From NCBI GenBank assembly GCA_025935615.1, contig JAICUY010000010.1, positions 1 to 36,625 on the forward strand: a DNA stretch of 36,625 nt. The letters run 5' to 3'. Below, piece after piece: positions 6,523 through 35,299 of the stretch (position 1 is its first letter; every line of letters starts with the position of its first letter). A program made the position numbers and the translations under genes. The stretch is from Steroidobacteraceae bacterium. GTDB taxonomy: Bacteria > Chloroflexota > Limnocylindria > QHBO01. Under the pieces are notes generated by a model that worked only from the letters and a program-made list of their open reading frames with translations, was not told where the DNA came from and made no database searches.

Positions 6523-6533
<11 letters not shown>

Positions 6534-9500
6534 CCGGGGCGATCTGCAGGTCCGCTTCGAGCCTGGCCACGCGATCGAGGTTGTCGGTGGTCGCCGCGCC
6601 GGCTCGAGCCATGAGGCGGATCGCCTTGGCCGCGCCCCACGGTGCCGGCAGCGCATCGAAGGCGGCCAGTGACGCGCGCGCCAGGTCCGCGGCCGCCGGG
6701 GCGTCGCCGCGAACCAGCGCCAGCCGGCCACGCACCAGCGACTCACTGCCGGTGCGGTACGGCGTCATCCAGCCGGGGCTGCCGTTCCAGGAGTCCATGC
6801 GCTCGACGGCCGCGTCCACCAGGTCGAGCCGTCCGTCGTGCAGCCAGGCATCCAGCACCGTCTCCATCGCCGCGAAGAACGAGGCCATGCCCGGAGCCTC
6901 GGTCCAGATGTCGAGCAGGTCCGGGCCAGGCTCGAACGCCGGAAGCAGGCCGGCCGCCACGAAGCGCAGGTCCATGGCGGCGTGCATGAAGCGTCCGAAG
7001 GGCGAGTCAGGGAAGGTGCCACGCTTGGGGTCGAGCCAGGCCTTGGCCCGCGCCAGCGCATCGGTCCGGCCCTGGGCCAGGGCGATGGGGGTCAGCACCG
7101 TCCAGGTGCGGACCACCGGCCGGTGGTAGGCGTTCGCCTCGCCGATGGCGACGGCGCGCTCACCGGCCGCCCAGGCGAGGATCCAGTCGCCGGTCACGAG
7201 CGTCGCCTCGGCGCGGTCGTAGGCGACCCACGCCTCGTCCTCGCGGACGCCGTGCGCGGTGGCAAGGTCCTCGGCGCGGTCGAGCAGCGGACCGACGTTC
7301 GCCGGGTCGGTCTCGACGCTGAGCATCGCCGCCGAGCGCAGCGCCGCTCCCGCGCGGCGTGGATTGCCGGCCTGCAGCGCCAGCTCGACCAGGCGCAGGC
7401 TGCCGTCCACCAGCTCGTCGCGACCGATGCGGCCGAGCTCGATCAGCACGCCGTCGCGCTGGAACTCGGCGTCGAGCTGCAGGCCGGTCTCGCCCGCCCG
7501 CTCGGCGATGCGGATGACGCGCTCCAGCTCGTCGACCACATCCGTGCTGCCCTGGTACGCGATGCGCGCCCAGGCCCGCGTATAGAGCAGGCGGGCTGTG
7601 GCCAGATCGTCGGCCTCGCCGATGCGCGCCAGCGCCTCCTCCGCCGCCTGCTCGGCGGGCACGAACTGGAGCTGCTCGATCAGCACCTCGCCCAGCGCGC
7701 TGACGCTGCGAGCGAACCCGTCACGCGCCGCGGCACGCGTTTCGCCACCGGCCTCGAGCCGCTCGGCAAAGGCGGCCGCTGCGGCACGGTAGGCAGCCAG
7801 CGCCTCGTCCATGTCGCCGCTGAAGGCGGTCGCGTCGCCCAGCCGATGCAGCCGGCGCGCGGTGACCAGCGGCTCGTCCTCGGCCGCCAGTTCGAGTGCG
7901 CGTCGCAGCTGCGCGGCCGCGGTCAGCGGCGCGGCTGTGGCGAGTGCCTGCTCGGCCGCCCGCTCGAGCCAGGACGCGGCGAGCACGACGAGGTCCGGAC
8001 GGGCCAGGCCGCCCGGGAGGCGAGGCGTCAGCGCCGGGAGCGCCGCGAGTGCATCGTCGAGATGGTGCGCGATCTCGGCCGCGATCAGCGCCACCCGCTC
8101 CCCGGCCGCCTCCTCGAGCCAATGCGCCAGCCGGACGTGGAGGTCGGCGCGCTCCAGGCGAGCGAGGCTCGCATAGCCGGCGTCGCGCAGCAGCGCATGG
8201 CGATACGCGTAGCCGTCACCCAGGAGCGCGGGACGCGGCCCGACCAGCAGGGCGCGGGTGCGCAGCTCATCGAGGGCTGCCGCATCGTCGGCCTCGAGGG
8301 CGGCGAGCGACTGCTCGACGAAGCGCCGTCCGGCGACCGAGGCACGTCGCGCCAGGCGGCGGGCATTCGCGGGCAGGTCGTCGAGCTGGGCGGCGTAGAT
8401 GGCCTGCACCGTCGAGGGCAGCGGCGCATCGGCCGGAGAGGTTGTGAGGCGCCAGCCACGGTCATCGGCGGCCAGCACGCCGACGCTGATCCACGACCGC
8501 AGCAGCTCCTCGATGAACAGCGGGGTGCCGTCCGAGCGCTCGACGATGCGGTCCACCAGCGGCGCCGGCAGCGCCTCGCCGACCAGGTGGGTGACCAGGT
8601 CGCGGGCGTCAAGCGCGGCCAGCGGAGCCAGCTCGAGCCGCTCGACGCAAGGCTCACCGCGCGGCTCGCACCATGGCCCGGCGCGCTCGAGCAGCGCCGG
8701 TCTGGTCGTAACCACCATGGGCCGGCCGGCGTCGAGCGCCGCGTCGAGGAAGGCGAGCAGGTCCGGCTCGGCCCAGTGGACGTCCTCGATCATCCAGGCC
8801 GAGCGTGCGTGTGGCGCCTCCAGGCCGCCGAGGACCTCGAGCCAGGCCGCGAAGCGCTCGTCGCGATCCGTGGGTGGGGCGGCGGCGGCCGAGGGACGCA
8901 CGAGGGCGAGCGCCGCGTCGACCAGGACGGCGCGCCGTGCCTCGCGGATCGCGGCGGCCTCGAGGGCGGTGTGCAGGGCGGCGCGCAGCTCAGCGTCGGT
9001 CGCAGCCCCGGACAGGGCGAGCGCGTCGAGCAGCAGCTGGGCCACCGGCTCAAAGGCCGATGCGCCGTCGGGCCTGACGGAGGCGCGACGAACCTTCACG
9101 CCGCCAGCGTCGAGCGATTCCGCGATCGCGGCCAGCAGCCGGCTCTTGCCGACGCCCGGAGGCGCGACGATCAGCCAGCGCACGCCGGCGCGAGCGGCGG
9201 CAAGGCTGCCGCGGATGCGTTCCAGCTCGGCATCGCGGCCGATGAGCGGAGCACGCAGCGCACCCATCGCCCGGCTGCGCTCGGGACGTGGCAGCAGGCG
9301 GACCGCCACCGCGGCGCGAACCGGCTCGGACTTCCCCTTGAGCGCCACAGCTTCGACCGGCTGCAGCTCGGCCGATGCAGCCAGCGCGAAGGCCGTGAGC
9401 TCGCCGACCAGCACCTGCGACGGCTCGGCGGCGGCCTGCAGTCGCGCGGCGACGTTGACCGTGTCGCCCGTCACGCGGCCGACATCCGGGCCGGATTCGG

Positions 9501-9858
9501 CGGCCACCACCTCGCCGGTGTTGATCCCGACTCGGACCTGGAGGCGGCCGGGCTCGAGGCCGAGCTGCGCGCCCAGCGCCTCGACGGCCGCGATCAGCGA
9601 CAGCCCAGCCGCGACGGCGCGCTCCGGATCGTCGTCGCGGCCACGGGGCAGCCCGAAGACCGCCATGGCTGCGTCACCGATGAACTTCTCGAGCTGCCCG
9701 CCGTGGCGCCGCATCACGTCGCGGACTGCCGCGAAATAAGCATCCTGGATGGTCGCCACGTCCTCCGGGTCGAGCCCTTCGGAGAGCGGCGTGAAGCCGA
9801 CCAGGTCGGCGAACAGAACGCTGACGATGCGGCGCTCGACGAAATTCGGCGGCTGCAT
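6523..9858 (-). CDS. Class III adenylate/guanylate cyclase domain + AAA-type ATPase + TPR-like regulator
   Basis: [33 protein letters not shown] cyclase motifs; Walker A APPGVGKS; long helical repeat C-terminus; 1111 aa. Confidence 0.9.
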
Positions 9859-27831: not shown

Positions 27832-29502
27832 CTGGGCGTCCTGCGCACCTATCGACGCCTGCTCTCCAACCCGGACCTGACCCGGCTGCTGGCCGGGGAG
27901 TTCGTGTCCGGCATCGGTGACTGGCTGTACCTGGTGGCGCTGCTGGTGGTCGTTTACCAGCGCGAGGGCTCGGCGATCGTGCTCGGCATCGTCGGCGCGG
28001 CACGCGTCACGCCCTACATCCTGCTGTCCGTACCGGCCGGGATCATCGTCGACCGGTTCGACCGCCGCATGGTGCTGATCGTCACCGACATCGCGCGCGG
28101 GCTGACCATGCTCGGGCTGGCGGTGCTGGTGGTGATCGAGGCACCGCTGTGGCAGATCGTGCTGCTCACCATCCTGGCCGCCTGCTTCTCCACCTTCTTC
28201 GGTCCTGCCATCGGCGCCCTGCTGCCGAGCCTGACCCGCGACGAGTCGGAGCTCGGGCCGGCCAACAGCGCCTGGGCCACGCTCGACAACCTGGCCTTCG
28301 TCATCGGTCCCGCCCTGGGTGGCGTCCTGATCGCAGCCGGCGGCCTGGCATTCGCCTTCATCCTCAATGCCATCAGCTTCGCGCTGGTGGCGGTGGTGCT
28401 CTGGCAGCTGCCGCGGCGCGTCCCGTCGGCGACGGCGACGGCCCTGGAAGCTGCCGCCGGCGAGCGCGAGGAGCAACCGAAACGGCCATTCCTCGAGGAG
28501 GTGCGCAGCCGGCTGCGCCCGCTGTCCGGCATGACGCTCATCAACGCCGTCGACAGCTTCGTCTTCGGCGGCCTCAGCGTGCTGACGGTGGTCATCGCCG
28601 TCGACGTGCTGCGGCAGGGCGACGCTGCGACGGGCTATCTCAACGCCGCGGTCGGACTCGGCGGCATGCTGGGCGCCATCGCTTCCGGCGTGCTGGTCCT
28701 CGGCCGGCGCCTTGCGCCGCCGCTGCTGGCCGGCGGGATCGTGCTCGGTCTCGGCCTCATCCTGCTCGGACCTTCCGGGAGCCTGATCCCGGCGCTGGTC
28801 GCCATGACGGTGGCAGCCGCCGGCAGCCTGCTGGTTGACGTGGTGAGCACCACGCTGTTTCAGCGCACCGTGCCGGACGAGATCCGGGGACGCACGCTCG
28901 GCATGCTCAACACGGTGTCCGTCACCGCCTATGCCGCCGGCTCATTCCTGCTGCCCTTCTTCTCCGACGTGGTCGGCGTGGTGCCGGTGCTGATTACCGC
29001 CGGGGGACTGATGGTGGTCGCCACCGTGGTCGGCGTCTTCCTGATCGGCCCCGCCGCCATCCGGCCACTTTCGCTGACGCCCGAGCAGGAGCGCTTTGCT
29101 CGGCTGAGCGCCTTCTCGGGCCTGCCGACCGGTCGGCTCGAGGCAGCAGCGCAGCAGGGCCAGGAGGTGGTCGTCGCGCCCGATACGGTGGTGGTCCGCC
29201 AGGGCGACGCGGCCGATCGGTTCTACTACATCCTCGAGGGCAGCTTCGAGGTGACGCAGGTGCCCGATGGTGGCGTGAAGCCGGTCAGCCTGCGGCAGAT
29301 GGGACCGGACGAGGTCTTCGGCGAGATCGGGCTCATCTCCGGCGTGCCGCGGACGGCGACCGTGACGGCAACCACCACCGGCCGCCTGCTGGCACTCGAT
29401 GGCGACGCGTTCCTGGACCTGGTCGGCAGCGCATCGGGCTCGTCGGCCCGCTTCCTGGACCTGCACCGCGGCAGCGTCCCGAGCCGGGCGGCGGCAGGCT
29501 GA
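27832..29502 (+). CDS. MFS transporter with C-terminal cyclic-nucleotide-binding domain; start probably non-canonical CTG at 27832 (first canonical in-frame start is GTG 27904)
   Basis: LRTYRRLLSNPDLTRLLAGEFVSGIGDWLYLVALLVVVY; VPAGIIVDRFDRR; C-terminal FGEIGLISGVPRTATV. Confidence 0.85.
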   Translation: MGVLRTYRRLLSNPDLTRLLAGEFVSGIGDWLYLVALLVVVYQREGSAIVLGIVGAARVTPYILLSVPAGIIVDRFDRRMVLIVTDIARGLTMLGLAVLVVIEAPLWQIVLLTILAACFSTFFGPAIGALLPSLTRDESELGPANSAWATLDNLAFVIGPALGGVLIAAGGLAFAFILNAISFALVAVVLWQLPRRVPSATATALEAAAGEREEQPKRPFLEEVRSRLRPLSGMTLINAVDSFVFGGLSVLTVVIAVDVLRQGDAATGYLNAAVGLGGMLGAIASGVLVLGRRLAPPLLAGGIVLGLGLILLGPSGSLIPALVAMTVAAAGSLLVDVVSTTLFQRTVPDEIRGRTLGMLNTVSVTAYAAGSFLLPFFSDVVGVVPVLITAGGLMVVATVVGVFLIGPAAIRPLSLTPEQERFARLSAFSGLPTGRLEAAAQQGQEVVVAPDTVVVRQGDAADRFYYILEGSFEVTQVPDGGVKPVSLRQMGPDEVFGEIGLISGVPRTATVTATTTGRLLALDGDAFLDLVGSASGSSARFLDLHRGSVPSRAAAG

Positions 29503-29506
29503 CGCG

Positions 29507-30202
29507 ATGCTTCCCAACGGGCAGGGCCTGACCCAGCTGCGCTCCTCGCCGCTCTTCAACCAGTGCGGCGATGACGTGCTGAGGGAGGTCGAGCGACGGC
29601 TGCGCCGCCGCCAGTTCCGCCGCGGAGAGGTGATCTTTCACCAGGGCGACCCCGGCGACGCGCTGCACGTGGTGGGCACTGGATCGGTCAAGATCGTCCT
29701 GCCGTCGTCCGAAGGGGACGAGGCGATCATCGCCACCCTGCGGCCCGGCGATTTCTTCGGGGAGCTGGCGCTGCTCGACAGCGCCCCGCACTCCGCCACC
29801 GCGGTGGCGGTCGAGCCGACCGAGACGTTCACCCTGCCGCGCGATGTCTTTCTCGAGCTGCTCGGCGAGCAACCCGCCCTGCGGGACGCGCTGCTCAAGG
29901 GACTTGCCGTCGAGCTGCGGCGCCTGACCGGGCATGTCGAAGAGCTGCACTTCCTCGACCTCGCCGGGCGATTGGCCATGCGCCTCGCGCGCCTCGCCGA
30001 GGAGCAGGGACGCGACCCGTCGGGCGAGGTGAGCCTCGACTGGCCATATACGCAGTCGGACCTGGCGGCCATGATCGGCGGGACGCGCCAGAGCGTGAAC
30101 CGGCTGCTCAGCGAGCTGGTCGACGACGGCCTGGTGCGCATCGAGCGCGACCGGCTGATCATCGGCGATCTCGATGAGCTCGCGCGGCGAGCCGAGCGCT
30201 GA
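29507..30202 (+). CDS. Crp/Fnr family transcriptional regulator
   Basis: GEVIFHQGDPGDALHVVGTGSVKIV...FFGELALLDSAPHSATA; HTH TQSDLAAMIGGTRQSVNRLLSELVDDGLV. Confidence 0.93.
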   Translation: MLPNGQGLTQLRSSPLFNQCGDDVLREVERRLRRRQFRRGEVIFHQGDPGDALHVVGTGSVKIVLPSSEGDEAIIATLRPGDFFGELALLDSAPHSATAVAVEPTETFTLPRDVFLELLGEQPALRDALLKGLAVELRRLTGHVEELHFLDLAGRLAMRLARLAEEQGRDPSGEVSLDWPYTQSDLAAMIGGTRQSVNRLLSELVDDGLVRIERDRLIIGDLDELARRAER

Positions 30203-30352
30203 GCCTGTCGGCGAATTGACATCGAGCGCGTCACCGAACCGATTCATCCCCTTGCATCGGCTCGGTAAGGTGCAGAGCAACAGGCGGTCGCCCAGCCGGC
30301 GGCCATGAAGCGAACAAACGCTCAGCCCAAACAGAGGAGAGGAATCAAACCA

Positions 30353-30616
30353 ATGGGTAATCTGAAGAGCGGCAACCTGAAGGCCACCGGCGATGACGAC
30401 GTGCAGGGTCACGGCAATCTGAAGTCGGGCAACCTGAAGGCGACCGAGGACGATGACGTCGCCGGTCACGGCAACCTGAAGAGCGGCAACCTGAAGGCCA
30501 GTGAGGACGATGACGTCACCGGTCACGGCAACCTGAAGAGTGGCAACCTCAAGGCGACCGACGACGACGACGTCGAGGGTCATCAGGCCTCGTTCCGCAG
30601 CCACAAGATCAAGTAG
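30353..30616 (+). CDS. 87-aa tandem-repeat mini-protein, four 19-aa repeats GNLKSGNLKA[TS]xDDDVxGH plus basic tail QASFRSHKIK
   Basis: SD gaggagagga upstream of ATG; perfect period; synonymous codon divergence among repeats. Confidence 0.88.
   Translation: MGNLKSGNLKATGDDDVQGHGNLKSGNLKATEDDDVAGHGNLKSGNLKASEDDDVTGHGNLKSGNLKATDDDDVEGHQASFRSHKIK
30356..30583 (+). repeat. 4 x 57-nt in-frame tandem repeat
   Basis: Units 30356-30412, 30413-30469, 30470-30526, 30527-30583. Confidence 0.95.
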
Positions 30617-30628
30617 CCCGAGCGCAGG

Positions 30629-30662
30629 GCGGGGCCATCGTTGAACCGATGAGCCCCGCTTT
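30629..30662 (+). terminator. Intrinsic-terminator-like hairpin, 12-bp stem with one bulge, short T run
   Basis: GCGGGGCCATCG-TTGAAC-CGATG(A)GCCCCGC followed by TTT. Confidence 0.6.
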
Positions 30663-30665
30663 CGC

Positions 30666-31442
30666 ATGACCAGCGCCGATCGGGCGAATCTCGAAGCGAC
30701 GGTCGCCTCCCTCAGGGAGGCGACTCTGCGCGCCGCGGTGGCGGGGCGGCTGCATCCCGACATGGAGCAGCGGCTGCTCCAGTCGATCGTGGACGCCACG
30801 GTGCGTCTGTTCGACGCCGAGGCATCCTCGATCGCGCTCTTCGAGACCGATCCGGACCGGCTCGTCTTCCGTGTGGCGGCCGGCGCGCAGGGTGCCGGCG
30901 CCATCGGCATGTCGATTCCGCCGACCCAGGGCATCGCCGGCTACGTCTTCTCGACCGGCCAGGCCCTGGCCCTCTCCGACGTCGCCTCCGATCCGCGCTT
31001 CAACCGCGCGGCCGCGGAGAAGACCGGCTACGTGCCGCGCTCGATCGCGGCCGTCCCGCTGCTCGACGAGAACGGCACCGTCGGCGTGCTGCAGGTGCTC
31101 GACAAGCGGGGCGAGCCGGCCTTCACCCTGCGCGACATGGATCTGATGGGCGTCTTCGCCCGCCAGGCCGCCACGGCCATCGCCGCCACCCGCGTGCAGC
31201 GCGACCTGCCGTCGCTGCTGCGGGCGGCCCTCAGCGAGCTCGACGGGGAGCTGAACGACGAGCAGCTCGACGAGCTCGTGGGTGCGGCGGCAGCCGAGCT
31301 CGACGCCGCCGAGGAGTCGCCGCTGTGGCGCATCGCCGACGCGGTGGCACGCACCCGCGCCCTCGGCGAGTCTGAGCAGGCTCTGGTGGCTCAGATCCTC
31401 GAGGCGATCGCCGCGCACGCGCGCCAGCGCCGCCGACGCTGA
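30666..31442 (+). CDS. GAF domain protein
   Basis: LLQSIVDATVRLFDAEASSIALFETDPDRLVFRVAAGAQG...TQGIAGYVFSTGQALALSDVASDPRFN...VPLLDENGTVGVLQVLDK. Confidence 0.88.
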   Translation: MTSADRANLEATVASLREATLRAAVAGRLHPDMEQRLLQSIVDATVRLFDAEASSIALFETDPDRLVFRVAAGAQGAGAIGMSIPPTQGIAGYVFSTGQALALSDVASDPRFNRAAAEKTGYVPRSIAAVPLLDENGTVGVLQVLDKRGEPAFTLRDMDLMGVFARQAATAIAATRVQRDLPSLLRAALSELDGELNDEQLDELVGAAAAELDAAEESPLWRIADAVARTRALGESEQALVAQILEAIAAHARQRRRR

Positions 31443-32335
31443 TGCCTCCCGAAGAGGAGGAGCCACTCGCCTGGTCGGAACCGTTCGCCGTCGCCGCACG
31501 GCTGGCCCGACAGTCGAGCCTGCGGACCGTCGACCGCAACTGGGCCTGGGGCGGCGCCACCGGCAAGGGCGTGACGGTGGCGATCATCGACAGCGGTGTC
31601 GAGGGCACGCACCCCATGGTGCGGGGCCGGCTGATCGAGAGCGTGGCGGTGCGCGTCACCGAGGAGAGCGACGTGGTGGTCGAGCCCGAGCCGGATGGCA
31701 CCGACCTGTTCGGACACGGCACGGCCTGCGCCGGGATCATCGTCGGCATGGCACCCGAGGTCGAGATCGTGTCGGTCCGCGTGCTGGGCGCTGACCTGAA
31801 GGGCAAGGGCGCGGCCTTCGCGGCGGGCCTCGAGTGGGCCATCGAGCGCGGGGTGCAGGTGGCGAACCTGTCGCTGTCATCGAAGTCGGAGTCGCTCTTC
31901 CCGATCTTCCACGAACTGGCCGATGACGCCTACTTCCGCAACACGGTGCTGGTCTCGGCCGCCAACAACGTGCCCGTGCCGAGCTACCCGTCGCTCTTCG
32001 CATCGGTCATTTCGGTGGCGGCCCATGCCGAGCCTGATCCGATGCGCTTCTACTACAACCCCTCGCCGCCGGTCGAGTTCGGCGGCTGGGGTGTCGACGT
32101 GCCGATCGCCTGGAAGGACGGCACGCAGATCGTCGCCACCGGCAACAGCTTCGCGGCGCCGCACATCGCCGGGCTGGTGACGCTGATCGTGTCGAAGCAC
32201 CCGGGACTCACGCCATTCGAGGTCAAGACCATCCTGACCGCCACGGCCGACAACCCGATCGGGCCTCAGCCCAGCGACGTCGCGAGCCCGCCCAGGAAGC
32301 CGACGGCCGACTCGCCCAGCACCTCGACCGCGTAG
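31442..32335 (+). CDS. S8 family (subtilisin-like) serine peptidase without obvious signal peptide
   Basis: Catalytic triad motifs AIIDSGVEGTHP, GHGTACAGI, GNSFAAPHIAGL; TGATG overlap with GAF gene. Confidence 0.9.
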   Translation: MPPEEEEPLAWSEPFAVAARLARQSSLRTVDRNWAWGGATGKGVTVAIIDSGVEGTHPMVRGRLIESVAVRVTEESDVVVEPEPDGTDLFGHGTACAGIIVGMAPEVEIVSVRVLGADLKGKGAAFAAGLEWAIERGVQVANLSLSSKSESLFPIFHELADDAYFRNTVLVSAANNVPVPSYPSLFASVISVAAHAEPDPMRFYYNPSPPVEFGGWGVDVPIAWKDGTQIVATGNSFAAPHIAGLVTLIVSKHPGLTPFEVKTILTATADNPIGPQPSDVASPPRKPTADSPSTSTA

Positions 32336-33593: not shown

Positions 33594-33628
33594 GGCCCGT
33601 GACGACCACACCGCGTCCGCCGAACCGG

Positions 33629-33634
33629 GATAAT
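33629..33634 (+). promoter_or_regulatory. Putative -10 box GATAAT 6 nt before GTG 33641 of hmgA (leaderless)
   Basis: GATAAT-CGGGAC-GTG. Confidence 0.5.
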
Positions 33635-33640
33635 CGGGAC

Positions 33641-34864
33641 GTGTTCTACGTCCAGCGCGGCCAGGTGCCGCACAAGCGCCACACCCAGTTCCGCAAGCCC
33701 GACGGATCGCTGTATGCCGAGGAGCTGTTCGGGGTCGAGGGCTTCGCCGGCCGCAGCTCGCTGCTCTACCACCACACGCCGCCGACCCAGGCATATGGGA
33801 TCGAGAAGGTGGCCGACGTCGCGCTCGAGGCGTCCGACGAGGACCGCACCGGCCCGCACCGGCACCACCTCGTCAACACCAGGGACCTGGCGCCCCGCGG
33901 CGACGCGGTCAGCGGGCGCGTGCCGCTCTTCTTCAACAACGACGTGACGTTCGGCGTGGTGCTGCCCGCCGAGCCGATGCGGACCTACTACCGCAACGGC
34001 GAGGCGGACGAGATGTTCTTCGTCCACACCGGCAGCGGCGTCCTGGACACGAACTTCGGGCCGATTCCCTACGGCCCGGGCGATTACCTCGTCATCCCGA
34101 TCGGCACGACGTACCAGCTGCGTCCCGGCGACGACGAGCAGCGGATGCTGTGGCTGGAGTGCCCGTCCGAGATCGAGCCGCCCAAGCGCTACCGCAACGA
34201 TTACGGGCAGCTGCTCGAGCACTCGCCCTACTACCAGCGCGATATCCGACCACCCGACGAGGCCGCCGCGCACACCGAGACCGGCGACTTCGTGGTCGAC
34301 GTGAAGACCCGCGGACGGATCACCGCCTACCACTACCGGCACCACCCGTTCGACGTGGTCGGCTGGGACGGCTACCTGTGGCCCTTCGCCTTCAACATCG
34401 GCGACTTCGAGCCCATCACCGGGCGCATCCACCAGCCGCCACCGGTGCATCTCACCTTCCAGCCGCGCAACTTCGTGGTCTGCTCGTTCGTGCCACGCAA
34501 GTTCGACTACCACCCGCTGTCGATCCCCGCGCCGTACAACCACAGCAACATCAACAGCGACGAGGTCATCTACTACGTCGCCGGCAACTTCATGTCGCGA
34601 CGCGGCGTCGACATCAGCTCGTTCACGGTGCACCCGGCCGGCATCGCTCACGGGCCGCACCCCGGGACGGTCGAGGCCAGCATCGGCAAGGAAGGCACCG
34701 AGGAGCTGGCGGTGATGATCGACACCTTCCATCCGCTGCACCTCACGCCGCAGGCATCCGACCTCGAGGACGATCGCTACCCGTACAGCTGGATCCCGCC
34801 GGAGGACGCCGGCGAACACGCTCGAGAGCTGTCGGAACGCGGACCGGAGGCATTCCCGGACTGA
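33641..34864 (+). CDS. hmgA: Homogentisate 1,2-dioxygenase (start taken as GTG 33641; upstream alternative GTG 33599)
   Basis: FYVQRGQVPHKRHTQFRKPDGSLYAEELFG; NNDVTFGVVLPAEPMRTYYRNGEADEMFFVHTGSG. Confidence 0.93.
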   Translation: MFYVQRGQVPHKRHTQFRKPDGSLYAEELFGVEGFAGRSSLLYHHTPPTQAYGIEKVADVALEASDEDRTGPHRHHLVNTRDLAPRGDAVSGRVPLFFNNDVTFGVVLPAEPMRTYYRNGEADEMFFVHTGSGVLDTNFGPIPYGPGDYLVIPIGTTYQLRPGDDEQRMLWLECPSEIEPPKRYRNDYGQLLEHSPYYQRDIRPPDEAAAHTETGDFVVDVKTRGRITAYHYRHHPFDVVGWDGYLWPFAFNIGDFEPITGRIHQPPPVHLTFQPRNFVVCSFVPRKFDYHPLSIPAPYNHSNINSDEVIYYVAGNFMSRRGVDISSFTVHPAGIAHGPHPGTVEASIGKEGTEELAVMIDTFHPLHLTPQASDLEDDRYPYSWIPPEDAGEHARELSERGPEAFPD

Positions 34865-34870
34865 GCCCGC

Positions 34871-34915
34871 GGTAGCATCGGTCTTGCTAGGAGGTCTCCC
34901 ATGACCGATGCGACC
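34871..34915 (+). promoter_or_regulatory. Inverted repeat enclosing SD and including start codon of Hsp20 gene; candidate RNA thermometer or operator
   Basis: GGTaGCATCGGTC-ttgctaggaggtctcccat-GACCGATGCgACC; 12 of 13 arm positions pair. Confidence 0.45.
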
Positions 34916-35299
34916 GCCATCCCCATCAACCTCTTCGAGAGTGACCGCGACCTGGTGGTCGTCGCGCCGATGCCCGGCGTCGAGGCGCACGACATCAGCG
35001 TCGAGATCACGGAGGACGGCCAGATGACGCTGCGCGCCAACCAGCACGGGGCCGGCCAGGAACGGATCGACTACCTGCTGCGCGAATGGAGCTACGGGCC
35101 GTACGACCGCACCATCGAGCTGCCGCGCAGCGTCGATGCGCGGCGCGCGAACCTCAGCTTCGACAACGGCGTGCTGACCGTGGCGCTTCCGAAGGTCCTC
35201 GGCGGCGTGCCGGCCACGCTGCACCTCGATGACCGTGGCAACGGCCGCGGCATCACGCGCGGGCACGTCGGCTCGCGAGGCGGCGCGGCGGCGGATTGA
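34901..35299 (+). CDS. Hsp20/alpha-crystallin family small heat shock protein
   Basis: VVVAPMPGVEAHDISVEITEDGQMTLRANQ...RTIELPRSVDARRANLSFDNGVLTVALPKV; SD AGGAGG. Confidence 0.9.
   Translation: MTDATAIPINLFESDRDLVVVAPMPGVEAHDISVEITEDGQMTLRANQHGAGQERIDYLLREWSYGPYDRTIELPRSVDARRANLSFDNGVLTVALPKVLGGVPATLHLDDRGNGRGITRGHVGSRGGAAAD

Follow-up and report, generated by a model that had tools for sequence, protein, structure and literature searches.

We propose, with a probability of about 0.7, that the 87-aa repeat protein encoded in the window (the whole 36,625-nucleotide stretch of DNA analyzed here) is a multi-unit peptide precursor whose recurring motif is the site of a neighboring subtilase, and that the resulting peptides are exported by a system under CRP/GAF control. 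A sequence-only reading of this DNA had offered a multi-core precursor as one of several suggestions; the conserved gene cassette, the conserved motif and a comparison with leader/core junctions in other genomes make it the favored one.

A Tandem-Repeat Gene under Purifying Selection

The repeat gene encodes Met, four 19-aa units and the tail QASFRSHKIK (table 1), and both its length and its coordinates are exactly those of the sequence-only reading. The 57-bp array was recovered independently by Tandem Repeats Finder (score 284). That reading had described the four repeats as perfect, which overstates the case: the four 19-aa units are present, but three positions vary, and these are the only ones with nonsynonymous differences, as it had itself listed (T/S; G/E/E/D; Q/A/T/E). 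Its claim that the differences are mainly synonymous agrees with pairwise comparison of the four units, in which pooled pS is 0.48 and pN is 0.10; the resulting pN/pS of 0.22 indicates that the peptide is maintained by purifying selection. The repeat is far beyond chance, and its reading frame is under selection. A Shine-Dalgarno-like sequence (GAGGAGAGGA) does lie ~9 nt 5′ of the ATG at 30353, as had been noted, and no comparable site accompanies the in-frame ATG at 30305.

A cationic decapeptide follows the array, and the repeat proteins of relatives likewise have a short basic end after the last GH (e.g., VMNLR, VSKIK, GHKVK). The window protein lacks the N-terminal leader of classical RiPP precursors; searches of NCBIfam and Pfam detected no NHLP/Nif11 leader domain in it and, as the earlier failure to recognize a family would suggest, no family match of any kind. 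A weak match to RsaX20_sORF was judged to be chance, as were weak matches of relatives' repeat proteins to LIC12298 and NOVBLXIJ. Peptide-string, motif-string and topic searches of a PMC subset (with subscription papers and preprints outside its scope) returned nothing relevant.

Table 1. Features of the repeat gene, its cassette and a further motif carrier in the host genome.
Feature	Position	Strand	Evidence or detail
Putative MFS exporter (MFS_1/MFS_3) with C-terminal cyclic-nucleotide-binding domain	27904–29502	+	PF07690, PF05977, PF00027
CRP/FNR-type regulator	29507–30202	+	cNMP_binding, HTH_Crp_2
Putative multi-unit peptide precursor, 87 aa	30353–30616	+	ORF analysis
Unit 1, GNLKSGNLKATGDDDVQGH	30356–30412	+	motif 30392–30412
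Unit 2, GNLKSGNLKATEDDDVAGH	30413–30469	+	motif 30449–30469
Unit 3, GNLKSGNLKASEDDDVTGH	30470–30526	+	motif 30506–30526
Unit 4, GNLKSGNLKATDDDDVEGH	30527–30583	+	motif 30563–30583
C-terminal segment QASFRSHKIK	30584–30613	+	cationic decapeptide 3′ of last motif
Strong stem-loop between precursor and GAF gene	30626–30663	+	−32.1 kcal/mol, z −4.2
GAF-domain protein	30666–31442	+	Pfam GAF, 9.7e-20
S8 subtilase, N-terminal LPAWSEPF-type motif	31442–32335	+	Pfam Peptidase_S8, 6.7e-30
Two-motif membrane protein, host copy	676–1461 (G000 contig 55)		locus L228

A Conserved Subtilase Cassette Surrounds the Repeat Gene

The GAF gene starts 50 nt 3′ of the repeat gene and, across relatives, nearly always adjoins the subtilase gene, whose start overlaps the GAF stop codon in the window. 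The CRP ORF is listed from 29399, with the ATG at 29507 as the more likely start, and most relatives have an orthologue (48–73% identical) that precedes the repeat gene or lies close to it; in many, the MFS-cNMP gene belongs to the cassette or is located nearby, on the upstream or downstream side. The subtilase has no apparent signal peptide or propeptide, and its NCBIfam matches (mycosin and QhpE) both fall below cut-off. Its Asp/His/Ser triad and oxyanion Asn are kept, as they are in its relatives, and a predicted model of moderate confidence (mean pLDDT 72.6) has the subtilisin fold; triad, oxyanion Asn and predicted fold together identify it as an S8 subtilase.

No classic T-rich terminator follows the repeat gene, and hairpins with z ≤ −3.0 were found 3′ of it in seven of the 14 relatives folded, some of them overlapping the GAF start. 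The stem-loop at 30626–30663 may possibly be a transcript attenuator or a 3′ stabilizer favoring an excess of precursor. Two further genes, for a homogentisate dioxygenase-like cupin (33599–34864) and an HSP20 protein (34901–35299), follow the cassette only in several members of the same family and probably lie outside the system. Elsewhere in the window, and not linked to the cassette, a 1111-aa ORF (6523–9858, minus strand) has a class III nucleotide-cyclase-like start and could possibly be a source of cyclic nucleotide.

The named relatives are Chloroflexota MAGs, 'Candidatus Limnocylindrales' among them. ORF clustering of 90 nonredundant subtilase loci placed the subtilase in 88, the GAF gene in 85 and the CRP/MFS-cNMP genes in 82; the family that came next was found in 28. 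With no family beyond the cassette genes exceeding 28 loci, a conserved modification enzyme is lacking within ~6 kb of the cassette across the 90 loci. In a GTDB profile scan, subtilase orthologues were found in Limnocylindrales, Anaerolineales, Thermomicrobiales, Nocardioides, Mycolicibacterium and a few MAGs labeled otherwise, and an IMG/VR scan with the subtilase gave no relatives.

An Acidic Motif Is the Sole Constant Part of the Repeat Units

In the slot between the CRP and GAF genes, or beside them, relatives encode repeat proteins with unrelated units (including VHTRASDDDDVEGH, AHKKAKSRAHKKADSDDVTGH, GVRKGLTDDDDVEGH, RAKLPGAADDTEGH and IASARKATDDDDTEGH), in which the only constant part is the unit end, (D/E)(D/E)D-[VT]-E-G-H; the segments between motifs diverge extremely fast between species. 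The sequence-only reading had taken conservation to extend over all 19 residues of the unit, which the relatives contradict: GNLKSGNLKA is confined to this genome, and DDDVxGH is what they have in common. An encapsulin cargo peptide, considered for the likeness of GNLK to GSLK-type tags, was rejected because relatives replace the GNLK segment entirely.

ORFs with at least two motifs were found at 51 of the 90 subtilase loci, compared with one for a reversed motif and none for reversed DNA. Within this set the motif positions are D in 92%, V in 70% or T in 30%, E in 88%, G in 91% and H in 100% of cases, the last being part of the search rule; in the window protein, the position before GH is not Glu in three of the four units. 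The two-motif criterion gave no precursor at the remaining 39 loci, several of which are short contigs or hold one-motif or divergent versions. At the DNA level, the pattern DD-[VTAIM]-E-G-H has well over 100 matches in 101 relatives, and the reversed pattern has four. Among the matches listed, the clustered ones fall in subtilase-bearing genomes (38 of the 101 have the enzyme); the one exception is in G014, where the contig ends beside the repeat gene. Repeats of EDDVEGH also adjoin the subtilase in Nocardioidaceae. On a tree of 108 subtilases, the repeat-precursor label changes at least 13 times on well-supported branches, a count inflated by loci with missing precursors; the tree has a midpoint root only and so gives no direction between single-core and multi-unit precursors.

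These comparisons also bear on the suggestion that the protein is a stress-protective, hydrophilin-like polyampholyte or a metal-binding repeat protein, its link to the protease being chance or turnover. High Gly content and strong hydrophilicity are the criteria for hydrophilins, and the window protein has both (~15% Gly, GRAVY −1.1), although this likeness is compositional and not diagnostic; the motif, moreover, is rich in Asp and His. Composition thus fits the hydrophilin half of the earlier suggestion but leaves unexplained the conserved neighborhood and the restriction of sequence conservation to D-V-x-G-H, independently of the remaining sequence. The metal-binding half is disfavored because Tyr, Phe or Asn can replace the motif His among subtilase-linked precursors. 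We regard this explanation as very improbable. One DVEGH repeat protein (L289 1682, plus strand, in G124) does have very His-rich units (KHTHHGAPKHVHHGAPRQDE), and may possibly be a metal-binding variant of the repeat family.

The Motif Marks Leader/Core Junctions beside Orthologous Subtilases

In genomes that we label Ktedonobacteria-type (an inferred label; the genomes are large and some nearly closed) and in G108, the orthologous subtilase has a class IV lanthipeptide synthetase as its neighbor, and GAF and MFS genes accompany the two in most cases; NF038150 scores 675.9 bits in L281 (cut-off 650) and 573–603 bits elsewhere. Nineteen of 20 NHLP-like precursors at these LanL loci carry [DE]VxG[YF] (once EVSAY) exactly between leader and core, as in AEELSGEVSGY-LVSDCTVTCILTTCTITSL, NLTDVAGY-SADLTISITICGLSCLLSL and AEVQGY-LSPSCGLTVLF; some of the LanL-linked precursors match NHLP-type families, weakly and below cut-off. 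Precursors of Anaerolineales, Thermoleophilia and Mycolicibacterium have EVxAH, EVAGH, DVAGF or EVEGY in the same place, with DVAGF at the junction in a Thermoleophilia precursor. Two types occur in Anaerolineales, one with a helical leader, EVxAH and a single short core, the other with a leader followed by many EVxAH units; a search for the Anaerolineales leader in 400 genomes of the phylum gave one match, which does not adjoin a subtilase. In Mycolicibacterium the single-core precursor reads SEVEGY-AAICWYYVDDGYGNWVYWEEYC (L208 7833 and L220 7822, both plus strand).

A leader peptidase has to cut between leader and core, which is where the motif sits, and we therefore interpret the D-V-x-G-H copies in the window protein as repeats of this site. 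Val at P4 and an aromatic residue at P1 suit the subsite preference of subtilisins. The sites of known S8 enzymes resemble the motif, which supports its assignment as an S8 site: cleavage by PatA follows G(L/V)E(A/P)S, and AmyP requires (T/S/A)EVE (PMC10885120). QhpE, a cytosolic subtilase, trims a peptide leader before export (PMC7876137).

The gene for the SEVEGY-AAICWYYVDDGYGNWVYWEEYC precursor follows those for the orthologous subtilase and a CRP-type protein, and its core is aromatic-rich, has two Cys and belongs to no known family. In G229, a precursor reading ...EDVQGY-EYYVNWWDRYGDYLYTDIYSNWGVYEGWENIAPL (L291 6473, plus strand), with a striking Tyr/Trp-rich core, lies directly before the GAF gene.

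A lanthipeptide reading of the window protein was rejected, as the protein has no Cys and no LanC-like gene was found: PF05147 (LanC) is present in 0 of 101 genomes, the host included (an assembly of 1.88 Mb that is 67.7% complete). Lanthipeptide-type modification of the window product is thus unlikely, and the lack of LanC-like genes together with that of a conserved modifying enzyme near the cassette suggests that the product may be unmodified. Modification of another kind by an unlinked enzyme is possible. Many RiPP systems use such enzymes, and the protease/GAF pair is the same as in LanL clusters; the product would then be cut as we propose but modified by an enzyme encoded elsewhere, making it a RiPP of unknown class and a sub-case of our preferred explanation. 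Given the missing Cys, the missing LanC-like genes and the absence of a conserved enzyme within ~6 kb, we consider this sub-case rather unlikely.

Other Proteins Carry the Motif

A family of membrane proteins carries two copies of the motif, which are its most conserved feature. It was found in 11 of the 101 genomes, every one of them with the subtilase (estimated p ~1e-5, ignoring phylogeny), and this restriction is evidence that motif and protease are functionally linked; at the same time such proteins are hard to interpret as precursors of secreted peptides, which may mean a broader function for the motif. In its members (relatives at L116, L118, L121, L124, L127 and L129), an N-terminal domain with two D-V/T-x-G-H motifs is combined with a transmembrane segment and with repeats at the C terminus (e.g., GGLVEGADI, SRGLQADI). 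There are also small proteins with one motif (L084, L119, L120, L054 7009 on the minus strand, L068 6215 on the plus strand and L197 4151 on the minus strand), in which a conserved basic C-terminal helix (SML..N..L...I...RARE.....R) follows the GH.

The two-motif membrane family fits a different account, in which the motif tags proteins for degradation or activation, the subtilase performs regulated proteolysis and the fragments are not secreted. The repeat protein would then be a titratable substrate or a competitive inhibitor in a switch under the cNMP/GAF sensors, and the cytosolic type of the protease and the three potential cyclic-nucleotide sensors of the cassette are in keeping with such a switch. 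It accounts poorly for an exporter linked to the cassette, for a motif that marks the leader/core boundary in lanthipeptide-type precursors with orthologous subtilases, and for variable segments that diverge between species as fast as peptide products should. On balance we judge a tag improbable.

Proposed Maturation Pathway

We hypothesize that a short basic segment (GNLKSGNLKAT in this protein) opens each unit, and that D-V-x-G-H, which ends the acidic stretch after it, is recognized and cut by the cytosolic S8 subtilase, whose gene lies two genes downstream. Cutting would probably occur after His (P5–P1 = D-V-x-G-H) and would release three 19-residue peptides of the GNLKSGNLKATEDDDVAGH type, an N-terminal 20-mer and the decapeptide QASFRSHKIK; as a cut after His leaves a long acidic tail, the peptides may require further trimming. 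Export is probably the task of the MFS protein with the cyclic-nucleotide-binding domain, and the system, or peptide synthesis, is probably under the control of the CRP-type regulator and the GAF protein. RiPP-type precursors have segments separated by protease sites and genes linked to a protease and an exporter; the linkage and the motif are observed here, and the cut is predicted. A secreted signal or antagonist would be the most likely class of product.

More broadly, and much more tentatively, the cassette may represent a widespread, undescribed bacterial propeptide system of Chloroflexota, Actinomycetota and perhaps others, in which unmodified tandem peptides are excised at D-V-x-G-H sites by a dedicated cytosolic subtilase, shared with class IV lanthipeptide systems, and exported under cNMP control. 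Multi-core precursors are a known class; this family, its motif and the protease/GAF/cNMP cassette appear to be undescribed in the sources searched, and with them, apparently, a route by which Chloroflexota and Actinomycetota would make and export small peptides. An orphan repeat protein would thereby become half of a protease–substrate pair with a short rule, [DE]-V/T-x-G/A-H/Y/N/F, that predicts where peptides start in dozens of clusters, some in cultured Nocardioides and Mycolicibacterium. The comparison suggests that very different peptides share a single subtilase/GAF maturation cassette, among them class IV lanthipeptides, single-core peptides and multi-unit precursors that are apparently unmodified; genome mining keyed on modification enzymes would miss the clusters that have none.

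Comparison with Known Systems

If this broader proposal is true, the system would be a bacterial counterpart of yeast alpha-factor or of animal neuropeptide prohormones, in which tandem short peptides are likewise split by protease sites. This is an analogy with no claim of homology: the window protein is bacterial, has no signal peptide and would be cut at S8 DVxGH sites instead of dibasic Kex2 sites.

In cyanobactin PatE, processed by PatA and PatG, several variable segments per precursor are each flanked by a subtilase motif, and the PatA site, which ends G(L/V)E(A/P)S before the cut, is comparable to D-V-E-G-H here. The window system differs from cyanobactins in having neither the PatA/PatG DUF architecture nor a heterocyclase or macrocyclase; its motif is acidic and ends in His, and its gene set is CRP, GAF and MFS-cNMP. 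Assignment as a cyanobactin was rejected, the subtilase scoring 16.9 bits for protease_PatA (TIGR03895; cut-off 421) and PatA/PatG/PatD/PatF-type families not being conserved nearby.

QhpE, the maturation protease of quinohemoprotein amine dehydrogenase, is likewise a subtilase without a signal peptide; it processes a ribosomal peptide inside the cytosol, ahead of export (PMC7876137). The window subtilase scores 104 bits for NF049966, below the cut-off of 165, and no qhp genes were seen in the cassette; its putative substrate is small and repeated, whereas that of QhpE is one subunit leader.

Class IV lanthipeptide clusters with NHLP-like leaders (the Ktedonobacteria-type loci L281–L283, L295 and L297) share the orthologous S8 subtilase, the GAF gene and the MFS transporter, and the [DE]VxG[YF] at their leader/core junctions corresponds to the window motif. 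Unlike them, the window system has no LanL, no NHLP leader and no Cys in its units, and it carries the junction motif four times.
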